From Priestia megaterium (GTDB taxonomy: Bacteria > Bacillota > Bacilli > Bacillales > Bacillaceae_H), in the NCBI RefSeq assembly GCF_009497655.1, contig NZ_CP023317.1, forward strand, positions 4,307,501-4,371,500: 64,000 bases of DNA, in the 5' to 3' direction. The position numbers and the translations under genes were made by a program. The stretch's first letter is position 1; each line of letters begins with the position of its first letter. This document shows positions 34,347 to 38,305 of the stretch, in pieces. The notes beneath the pieces were generated by a model, which saw only the letters and a program-made list of their open reading frames with translations, had not been told where the DNA came from and searched no databases.

Positions 34347-34505
34347 ATAGGCTGGTAACTATCTCTAAAGAAAAATCTGTGGACTTTTTCAAACTCTCTT
34401 GTCCCTGGGGGGAATTTTAAACGTACAGGCAAAGACATCCTTCTTTTTACATATAGTGTAATGTTAGTCTCTCACAGGTTGATATCCCCTTATGGAGGTG
34501 AAGAG

Positions 34506-35234
34506 ATGTCTGCATTATTTACCGCACTAGGCTATTTCTTTAAAGAATTGGTTTTCCTTGTTTCCTACGTAAAAAACAATGCGTTTCCTCAACCCTTGTC
34601 TGCTGCTGAAGAAAAGAGATATTTATCTTTAATGGAACAAGGAGATCAAGAAGCGCGAAACCTTCTTATTGAACACAATCTCCGACTCGTTGCGCATATT
34701 GTTAAAAAGTTTGAAAACACGGGAGAGGATGCGGAAGATTTAATTTCAATTGGGACAATCGGTTTAATTAAAGCAATCGAAAGTTATTCGCAAGGAAAAG
34801 GAACAAAATTAGCTACTTATGCCGCACGCTGTATTGAAAATGAAATATTGATGCACTTGCGAGCGCTCAAAAAAACAAAAAAAGATGTGTCGCTGCATGA
34901 TCCAATTGGCCAGGATAAAGAAGGAAATGAAATCAGTTTGATTGATGTATTAAAATCAGAATCAGACGATGTAATTGATATGATTCAACTAAATATGGAA
35001 TTAGAAAAAATAAAAGAATACATCGATATCCTCGATGATCGAGAAAAAGAAGTAATTGTTGGCCGCTTCGGTTTGGATTTGCAGGATGAAAAAACCCAGC
35101 GAGAAATTGCAAAGGAATTAAATATTTCAAGAAGTTATGTTTCGCGAATTGAAAAGCGAGCGCTGATGAAAATGTTTCACGAATTTTACAGAGCCGAAAA
35201 AGAGAAAAAAAAGAGCGGAAAGAAGGAGAATTAA
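34506..35234 (+). CDS. sigK: Sporulation sigma factor K (intact pro-sigma-K)
   Basis: The late mother-cell sigma factor, 242 residues, one continuous frame. Residues 1-20 form the hydrophobic pro-sequence; by analogy with B. subtilis, SpoIVFB would cut after Ser20, before YVKNNAF. Region 2 ([30 protein letters not shown] in two parts) and region 4 helix-turn-helix ([22 protein letters not shown]) are clear. There is no skin-type insertion. Start is ATG 34506-34508 after TGGAGGTG. CATATAGT at 34469-34476 resembles a sigma-E -10. Confidence 0.97.
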
Positions 35235-35257
35235 TCCTTCTTTCCGCTCTTTTTTTA
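35209..35257. terminator. Terminator at the sigK 3' end
   Basis: A long AAAGAGCGGAAAGAAGGA stem, 7-base loop and its complement followed by T-runs. It overlaps the last sigK codons and can serve transcripts from both sides. Confidence 0.93.
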
Positions 35258-35315
35258 AAATAATTTCCAAATGATAATCCGCAGCAAACACATCATTACT
35301 CCCCCTACTAGTCAT

Positions 35316-35378
35316 TTAGGTGGAATCTTTCTCCACAAGCAGCCATACAACGATATATCCTTTTTGATTAATCATCAT
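35316..35378 (-). CDS. Possible 20-residue ORF downstream of yrzI
   Basis: ATG 35376-35378 lies 7 bases after a good ribosome-binding site (AAAGGAG, about 35386-35392) and opens 20 codons: MMINQKGYIVVWLLVEKDST. It lies 26 bases after yrzI and before the sigK terminator. No family is recognised. Only the ribosome-binding site and position support it. Confidence 0.35.
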   Translation of the reverse strand: MMINQKGYIVVWLLVEKDST

Positions 35379-35404
35379 TCATCCACTCCTTTCCACTATT
35401 CAAA

Positions 35405-35545
35405 TTAGAAATGACGATAAAATTCATACTTGCGGTCTTTTATTTCTTCTTCTAATTGTCTTACATACTGTTCATGCTTAATTTCTTCCTCTGAGTATTG
35501 ACGGGACTTTATGGTAATAGTTAAAAAGAAAATATTCAGTGTCAT
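35405..35545 (-). CDS. yrzI: YrzI family small protein
   Basis: A 46-residue protein with a hydrophobic head (MTLNIFFLTITIKSRQ) and a charged helical tail (YSEEEIKHEQYVRQLEEEIK). Length and N-terminus match the YrzI small-protein family of Bacillus. It has a strong ribosome-binding site (AAGGAGGTG). No promoter fits between it and the terminator hairpin directly upstream, so expression probably depends on read-through. The function is unknown. Confidence 0.8.
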   Translation of the reverse strand: MTLNIFFLTITIKSRQYSEEEIKHEQYVRQLEEEIKDRKYEFYRHF

Positions 35546-35564
35546 TCCAATCACCTCCTTATAC

Positions 35565-35599
35565 AAAAAAAACCACAGTTATGCATAAGCATCCTGTGG
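35565..35599 (-). terminator. Second tandem terminator, upstream of yrzI
   Basis: CCACAG (complement 35594-35599), an inner ATGC/GCAT stem, CTGTGG (complement 35573-35578) and eight T residues. It ends only about 5 bases before the yrzI ribosome-binding region. Its arms repeat those of the hairpin at 35612-35643. Confidence 0.85.
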
Positions 35600-35611
35600 C
35601 TGAAAGACAAT

Positions 35612-35643
35612 AAAAACCACAGGGCTACTATTCGCACCTGTGG
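35612..35643 (-). terminator. First tandem terminator, after the 32-residue ORF
   Basis: CCACAGG (complement 35637-35643), a 13-base loop, CCTGTGG (complement 35617-35623), then TTTTTATT. Confidence 0.82.
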
Positions 35644-35678
35644 TGAATTAACGTGTTTTAACGATCAAGGTAAGAAAG

Positions 35679-35777
35679 TTACTTGATACAGGAACACGGC
35701 CGAATAGTATACATATATAGACGATTTTTGAACATAGCCCAAACTGAATGATCCATACCTGATAAACGTCTTAACAT
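35679..35777 (-). CDS. Small ORF or leader peptide, 32 residues
   Basis: ATG 35775-35777 lies behind AAAGGAGGTCG and opens 32 codons, beginning MLRRLSGMDHSVWAMFKNRL and ending IRPCSCIK. It is basic, with two Cys codons close to the stop. It has its own consensus-like promoter (35822-35850) and is followed by tandem terminators, so it forms a complete transcription unit of about 200 bases. No family is recognised. It could be a small protein or the leader peptide of an attenuator controlling yrzI. Confidence 0.6.
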   Translation of the reverse strand: MLRRLSGMDHSVWAMFKNRLYMYTIRPCSCIK

Positions 35778-35821
35778 ATGACTCGACCTCCTTTTAATAA
35801 AGTATTTTCCTTACAATGGTA

Positions 35822-35850
35822 ATTATATCCACGAACTTATAAAAAGTAAA
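35822..35850 (-). promoter_or_regulatory. Sigma-A promoter of the small-ORF/yrzI unit
   Basis: TTTACT (35845-35850), a 17-base spacer, TATAAT (35822-35827). Confidence 0.72.
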
Positions 35851-35894
35851 CTGTTTTTTTGAAAAATAGGGAATTTTTTTATTTTTTTAACCCT

Positions 35895-35928
35895 CATAAA
35901 AAAAAGACGATGGATCATCGCCTTTTTG
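35895..35928 (-). terminator. Terminator after yrhC
   Basis: AAAAAGGCGATG, 3-base loop, CATCGTCTTTTTTTT on the minus strand; ends the yrrT-mtnN-mccAB-yrhC operon. Confidence 0.88.
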
Positions 35929-35934
35929 TATCTA

Positions 35935-36165
35935 TTATTCTTTTTCTTTCATTAATTCTTTTTTTAGTTTTTTAGTTTGATAACTAAAATAAAAAGCAAG
36001 GGCGGTAAAAAGAATAACGATCGCTTCCATTATTCCAAGCTGCATATCACTTTTTTCACCTTGGCCAATCATAACACCAATATACAAGAATGTACTTACG
36101 GCTAGAAGGACGTAAATAAAGCGGCTGTAATCTTCAATTTTTGCTTTGATGTGTTGAGCTTTCAT
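35935..36165 (-). CDS. yrhC: YrhC-like small membrane protein
   Basis: A 76-residue protein with two membrane helices (about residues 15-33 and 43-62) and a basic C-terminus (KKLKKELMKEKE). It matches YrhC, the last gene of the B. subtilis yrrT-mtnN-mccA-mccB-yrhC operon. The function is unknown; the operon context suggests a link to sulfur amino acid metabolism or transport. Confidence 0.87.
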   Translation of the reverse strand: MKAQHIKAKIEDYSRFIYVLLAVSTFLYIGVMIGQGEKSDMQLGIMEAIVILFTALAFYFSYQTKKLKKELMKEKE

Positions 36166-36246
36166 ACAATCACCTTCTCAGTAGAATGTTATAACTCTAC
36201 TCTATCATAGATCTATAGGTCTATAAAAATCCTATTTTTACCACCT

Positions 36247-38305
<2,059 letters not shown>

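Follow-up and report, generated by a model that had tools for sequence, protein, structure and literature searches.

A candidate attenuator ahead of yrzI in Priestia megaterium and its relatives that may sense ribosomes held at the beginning of a leader ORF

The window, the 64,000-nucleotide stretch of Priestia megaterium DNA analysed here, carries on its minus strand a yrzI gene (35405..35545; 46 aa, ATG at 35545), which was taken from the ORF list and matches the profile PF09501 (E 5.9e-22). It is followed on the same strand by a small ORF, MMINQKGYIVVWLLVEKDST (35316..35378), whose C-terminal VEKDST is an EKD with two further residues and which has similar counterparts in relatives, and by a possible second small ORF, MMCLLRIIIWKLF (35255..35296). 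An uninterrupted sigma-factor gene with Sigma70 regions 2 and 4, probably sigK, heads towards this operon on the plus strand (34461-35234), and a strong hairpin with a T-run (35254-35208) lies between the two. Upstream of yrzI, the first-pass annotation had placed four hairpin arms and read them as two intrinsic terminators in tandem, and both points hold on the minus strand. Terminator 1 (35616..35644), CCACAGG-loop-CCTGTGG, consists of arm 1 (35643-35637) and arm 2 (35623-35617) followed by the T-rich run TTTTTATT, and terminator 2 (35572..35600), CCACAG-loop-CTGTGG, consists of arm 3 (CCACAGG, 35599-35593) and arm 4 (CTGTGG, 35578-35573) followed by eight T, with 27 nt between arm 4 and the yrzI ATG. 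The minimum-energy fold contains both hairpins. Arms 2 and 3 can instead form an alternative hairpin of 7 checked pairs (35593..35623, minus strand), which excludes both terminators and which we return to below with its conservation and folding. The promoter-like site, the leader ORF and the two elements A and A' described next were missing from that annotation, whose four arms make up the downstream half of a larger leader.

All leader features lie on the minus strand. A promoter-like site found by a consensus scan, TTTACT-17 nt-TATAAT, is located at 35822..35850; the scanned 2.5 kb held 5 such sites against 7.8 expected, which makes it weak evidence when taken alone, and a similar TTTACA...GGATATAATTACC was seen by eye ahead of the leader in relatives. 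The transcript probably starts near 35815, about 170 nt upstream of the hairpins. Between the promoter-like site and the leader ORF lies AAAGGAGGTCGAGT. The ORF itself (35679..35777; 32 codons, MLRRLSGMDHSVWAMFKNRLYMYTIRPCSCIK), which has equivalent short ORFs in relatives, is preceded by a strong Shine-Dalgarno (SD) sequence, AAAGGAGG (35794-35787), and the overlapping SD-region element GGTCGAGT (35781..35788) is the first partner of element A, as indicated by sequence, pairing in the free fold and covariation. Element A, ACTATTCGGCC (35698..35708), lies within the last codons of the ORF and was defined by sequence, folding and covariation; its part ATTCGGCC is complementary to GGTCGAGT with two G-U pairs, and its part ACTATTCG is complementary to A', CGAATAGT (35627..35634), the loop of terminator 1 and second partner of A by folding and covariation. 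A hairpin around the leader stop codon, CGTGTT...AACACG (35652..35698), was seen in the folds between A and terminator 1. The fold energy of the 263-nt leader is 3.84 s.d. below that of shuffled sequences, and that of its 160-nt 3' part 3.41 s.d. below, with 0 of 200 shuffles as low in either case. A simple terminator scan reported neither hairpin, probably because it permitted only loops of 3-8. On another replicon of the same genome, a weak match (C2:12913-12962) showed no similar leader on reading.

Of 397 genomes of the order, 193 contain PF09501 matches. We assembled 114 yrzI loci, 34 from the searches and 80 fetched, taken with the best scores first and so not a random sample, and applied a single script to their upstream regions. 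A short SD-led ORF followed by a terminator was present in 107 of the 114 loci, an SD:A score of at least 16 in 101, an A:A' score of at least 12 as well in 72, and both pairings with the usual spacing and at least two terminators in 62. At the same four levels, the script found 4, 1, 0 and 0 among the reverse complements of the 114 and 5, 1, 0 and 0 among their shuffles, while stretches downstream of yrzI gave 54, 6, 1 and 0 of 110. The automatic choice of the leader is apparently wrong in some loci (e.g. L095, L120, Cytobacillus). Removing 6 rows with SD:A below 16 and 6 near-duplicates from the 107 left the 95 leaders used below. In a looser test that ignored terminators, SD:A reached at least 16 in 70 of 80 named loci, in which B. 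subtilis itself is represented by B. spizizenii, B. halotolerans, B. mojavensis and others. A strict pattern made of SD, A and arm 1 occurred in 81 of the 397 genomes, never more than once in any of them, and had 0 hits in the backward control; the window itself is not matched because it has TTCGGCC. Of these 81 loci, 36 were examined, among them six from genera in which the family search was weak or silent, and all 36 have a YrzI-family ORF within 1 kb 3' of the pattern. Two of the ten genomes of the genus (G002 and G004) have neither a DNA match to the leader-yrzI region nor a YrzI match, i.e. leader and yrzI are absent together. Upstream of yrzI in L031, L043, L044 and L045, three tandem terminators with similar stems stand in place of two.

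To examine whether the pairings are maintained, we compared each leader's own partners with partners exchanged between species, using one representative per genus. The SD:A pairing scored 20.0 with its own partners and 17.8 with swapped ones, and 0 of 1000 draws were as good (36 genera); for A and the loop of terminator 1, the scores were 14.5 and 12.5, again with 0 of 1000 draws as good. Tested against the complete 5' half of terminator 1, A did as well with exchanged partners in 5 of 1000 draws, and the control pairing of A with terminator 2 showed no preference for its own partner in the same swap by genus (457 of 1000). With one leader per family (20 leaders), the numbers became 1 of 1000 for SD:A, 13 for A:loop and 199 for A:5' half. 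Two-sided changes were seen in SD:A (GGTCGAAT/ATTCGACC, GGCTGAAT/ATTCAGCC, GGTTGAAC/GTTCAACC, GGGAAGG/CCTTCCC and GCTGAACGAA/TTCGTTCGGT) and in A:A' (ACTATTCG/CGAATAGT, CATCCG/CGGATG, CAATTC/GAATTG and CGTTCAACC/GGTTGAACG). In B. spizizenii, B. halotolerans, B. mojavensis and B. inaquosorum, the partner of A is the 5' arm of terminator 1 and not its loop (GCCTGTGG/CCGCAGGC), which would make a plain antiterminator in the B. subtilis group and supports the reading of A:A' elsewhere. In L238-L242, AGGTCG from the SD region (AGGTCGA) recurs in the 5' half of terminator 1, which apparently imitates the SD as a partner of A.

Folding was modelled for transcripts of increasing length, each with and without the footprint of a ribosome. 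Once the terminator 1 loop had been transcribed, but before arm 2, A:SD exceeded 0.3 in 75 of the 95 leaders when no ribosome was present; A:loop exceeded 0.3 in 59 of 95 with the leader start masked and in 4 of 95 without. In the window leader transcribed through arm 3, masking the start lowered terminator 1 from 1.00 to 0.01 and raised arm 2:arm 3 from 0.00 to 0.99, but when A was shuffled terminator 1 stayed at 0.99 under the same mask; in energy, terminator 1 was 8.9 kcal/mol better than its alternative without a ribosome and 3.4 kcal/mol worse with one. Over 82 leaders, masking lowered the mean of terminator 1 from 0.81 to 0.36 (0.77 with A shuffled) and raised that of arm 2:arm 3 from 0.19 to 0.62. 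Not all leaders behave in this way: at the arm 3 stage, terminator 1 did not exceed 0.5 even in the ribosome-free fold in 11 of the 82, with arm 2:arm 3 dominant in examples such as L018, L019, L023 and L034, and it remained above 0.5 with a masked start in 28 of the 82. When the ribosome was slid along the window leader, the ON state was firm only for P-site codons 1-3; in the mean of 40 leaders, codons 1 and 3 were the only ones of ten positions tried with low terminator 1. One isolated ON state in the window leader, with the P site of the ribosome on the final sense codon (codon 32) and A:A' at 0.7, counts against the model, which does not account for it. The weak point of the model is the first U-tract, where terminator 1 is still predicted to win at equilibrium. 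In a transcript of the window leader ending at arm 2, terminator 1 was favoured by 2.3 kcal/mol with the start masked and by 15.3 kcal/mol without, and over the 95 leaders its mean hardly shifted on masking (0.89 to 0.84). Escape at this U-tract must therefore be kinetic in the model, with A:A' formed first.

From these results we consider it likely that the leader is an attenuator governed by whether a ribosome occupies the beginning of its ORF. Three features of a ribosome-mediated attenuator are found here: the SD-led short ORF lies upstream of an intrinsic terminator; the antiterminator A:A' covaries and excludes terminator 1 in the nested folds, though not at equilibrium at its own U-tract; and the anti-antiterminator SD:A covaries and is removed in the model by masking the start. 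With no ribosome on the leader, or with one past about codon 4, A would pair with the leader's own SD region, and terminator 1 and then terminator 2 would form (OFF); a ribosome sitting on A itself would likewise leave terminator 1 free. A ribosome held at the leader start, by an early stall or by a queue reaching back to the start from slow elongation, would mask the SD region, so that A would be free when A' emerges and A:A' could form. This pairing would delay arm 1:arm 2 long enough for the polymerase to clear the first U-tract, after which arm 2 would capture arm 3, no terminator 2 would form, and yrzI and its small ORFs would be transcribed (ON). That a ribosome does the masking in the cell, that polymerase escapes terminator 1 kinetically and that the steps follow in this order are inferences. 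Most likely, transcription of the yrzI genes is thus confined to conditions of impaired protein synthesis, in which ribosomes are held up at the beginning of this throw-away mini-gene.

The leader peptide gives little room to the more classical possibility that a stop at particular codons or on the nascent peptide, such as an IRP stretch or Cys codons, sets the switch. Such a stall is suggested by YxIRPxC, common to close relatives at the end of the leader, and by the bmrB and vmlR leaders, which answer to drug-stalled ribosomes. However, the A core TTCGRCC is read as IRP in 17 of 95 leaders, as ST in 44 and as FD-type residues in 14, with another core in 20, and neither a conserved nascent-peptide motif nor conserved sensor codons was found among the 95 leaders. 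In the model, moreover, a ribosome near the end of the ORF covers A and gives OFF. We therefore dropped peptide-specific stalling at IRP or Cys codons, the same RNA core being read in three frames, and regard a stalling leader of this type as unlikely. The length of the ORF is restricted, with 21-35 codons in 93 of 95 leaders, and in 87 of 95 the distance from the 3' end of A to the last letter of the stop codon is 13-28 nt. As judged from these sequences, the RNA is kept and so is an ORF of restricted length, but the peptide is not conserved.

The pairing of arm 2 with arm 3, on which the first-pass annotation built its attenuator, is supported in two ways. Across 32 genera, own partners scored 20.1 and swapped partners 16.9, with 0 of 1000 draws as good, and in the folds the pairing appears once the leader start is masked. 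Taken alone, this conservation is not proof, as any pair of terminators with a common stem sequence would show it; over 83 loci, arm 1:arm 4 (21.2 own, 16.9 swapped) is conserved along with arm 2:arm 3 (20.1 and 17.3), since shared stems imply both, and we dropped the conservation of arm 2:arm 3 as sole proof. The attenuator logic of the annotation is thus upheld in its alternative pairing, but the four arms alone make no switch, and control would come from element A. Duplication of a stem would yield the two cross-pairings alike, as observed, and could mean that two plain terminators insulate yrzI from the leader promoter and the upstream genes, with the pairings as by-products and yrzI expressed by read-through; the equilibrium preference for terminator 1 at its own U-tract fits this as well. 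Insulation would leave the leader ORF, SD:A, A:A' and their covariation unaccounted for, and also the association of leader and yrzI in all 36 pattern loci examined, and we find it quite improbable.

The leader could also act chiefly in trans as a small RNA, termination marking merely its 3' end. The B. subtilis candidate is ncr2184/ncr60, a 234-nt RNA between yrzI and yrhG that is Hfq-bound, with a co-immunoprecipitation RPKM ratio of 22.2 (PMC3574147). A terminated leader would show up as a small RNA all the same, and the leader remains ahead of yrzI across genera with its conserved pairs internal, which makes a main role in trans very unlikely. That a ligand or protein masks the SD region or A, with the ORF incidental, is as remote: the model requires only masking of the SD region, whatever the agent, but an Rfam 15 search of 34900-36500 gave 26 weak matches up to E 1, all below the gathering score, and the short ORF with its SD (107 of 114 loci) keeps its narrow range of lengths.

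In trp-type amino-acid leaders, which PMC4191407 also mentions, segments 1:2 and 3:4 are set against 2:3. The attenuator proposed for yrzI has this four-segment logic in common with them, but its segment 1 is the SD region of the leader and not a set of sensor codons, and its peptide is not conserved. An anti-antiterminator, antiterminator and terminator under the control of a ribosome on a leader ORF are a known kind, as in vmlR and bmrB. According to PMC9226507, the vmlR leader of B. subtilis has a uORF within the anti-antiterminator, an antiterminator and an intrinsic terminator, a ribosome on the uORF blocks the anti-antiterminator and causes antitermination, and the SD and start codon of the uORF are needed, a requirement that is predicted for the yrzI leader. 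The same paper describes a three-codon uORF (MIN) inside one hairpin and sequestration of the gene's own SD as well, whereas the yrzI leader has an ORF of 21-35 codons whose end pairs with the SD region, its antiterminator uses the loop of a terminator as partner, and arm 2:arm 3 takes care of a second terminator. The bmrB leader of the B. subtilis bmrCD operon is similarly induced by drugs that hit protein synthesis and is co-regulated with yrzI in two data sets (PMC10100781, PMC10714963), but PMC4191407 places its terminator within a 53-aa ORF and calls its anti-anti-terminator function unclear, while in the yrzI leader both terminators lie beyond a shorter ORF and SD:A is backed by covariation. 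Searches of the literature for yrzI, S1025 with Rae1, S1027 and ncr2184/ncr60 and of Rfam gave no description of the yrzI leader, although an earlier mention in studies of Rae1 is possible. As far as we searched, the new elements are this leader itself, a first segment formed by the leader SD region that acts across a whole ORF, a terminator loop as the partner of the antiterminator, a freed arm that disables a second terminator, and a leader ORF whose peptide is not conserved.

The first-pass annotation had called the switching signal unknown, and this can be improved to translation. A review table (PMC7604286) lists yrzI-luciferase as a B. subtilis reporter for protein-synthesis inhibition, so the literature supports a response of B. 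subtilis yrzI to translation inhibition, as the model predicts; this response, as given in the table, could lie in the promoter. Expression of yrzI is also up together with bmrCD on depletion of a tRNA maturase (PMC10100781) and together with bmrBCD in a whiA mutant (PMC10714963). Against this, yrzI is altered in sigW and yhfW mutants as well.

The content of the operon may bear on its role. A short downstream ORF ending in EKD, EKG or similar is present at 69 of the 95 leader loci, with EKD or EKG itself at 52, and the stretch GTGGAGAARGAYTCCACCTAA, which could fold on itself, at 26. In B. subtilis, the S1025 ORF is cut by the ribosome-associated nuclease Rae1. The window ORF at 35378-35316 (minus strand) resembles S1025 in its position and its EKD ending, and yrzI is listed as a candidate Rae1 target in B. 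subtilis. In some genera (L237-L242), this leader stands ahead of operons that hold several divergent YrzI-like ORFs, some hardly detected by the Pfam model, and several EKD/EKG mini-ORFs.

We suggest tentatively, as a reading that may well prove wrong, that the leader is a sensor of start-codon occupancy, in which the SD region of a content-free ORF would report the dwell time of initiating ribosomes, whatever prolongs it, without being tuned to any one codon, drug or metabolite. The tiny-protein operon would then be a general translation-distress operon kept through much of the order, and its EKD mini-ORFs might allow one signal both to switch on the operon and to clear its message. If the attenuator works as proposed, a defined switch would explain the yrzI reporter, the rule of the leader would be start-codon occupancy, and a single upstream pairing would be seen to disable two consecutive terminators. 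For the many members of the order that carry yrzI genes, this would suggest that the role of the operon is a response to translation trouble.
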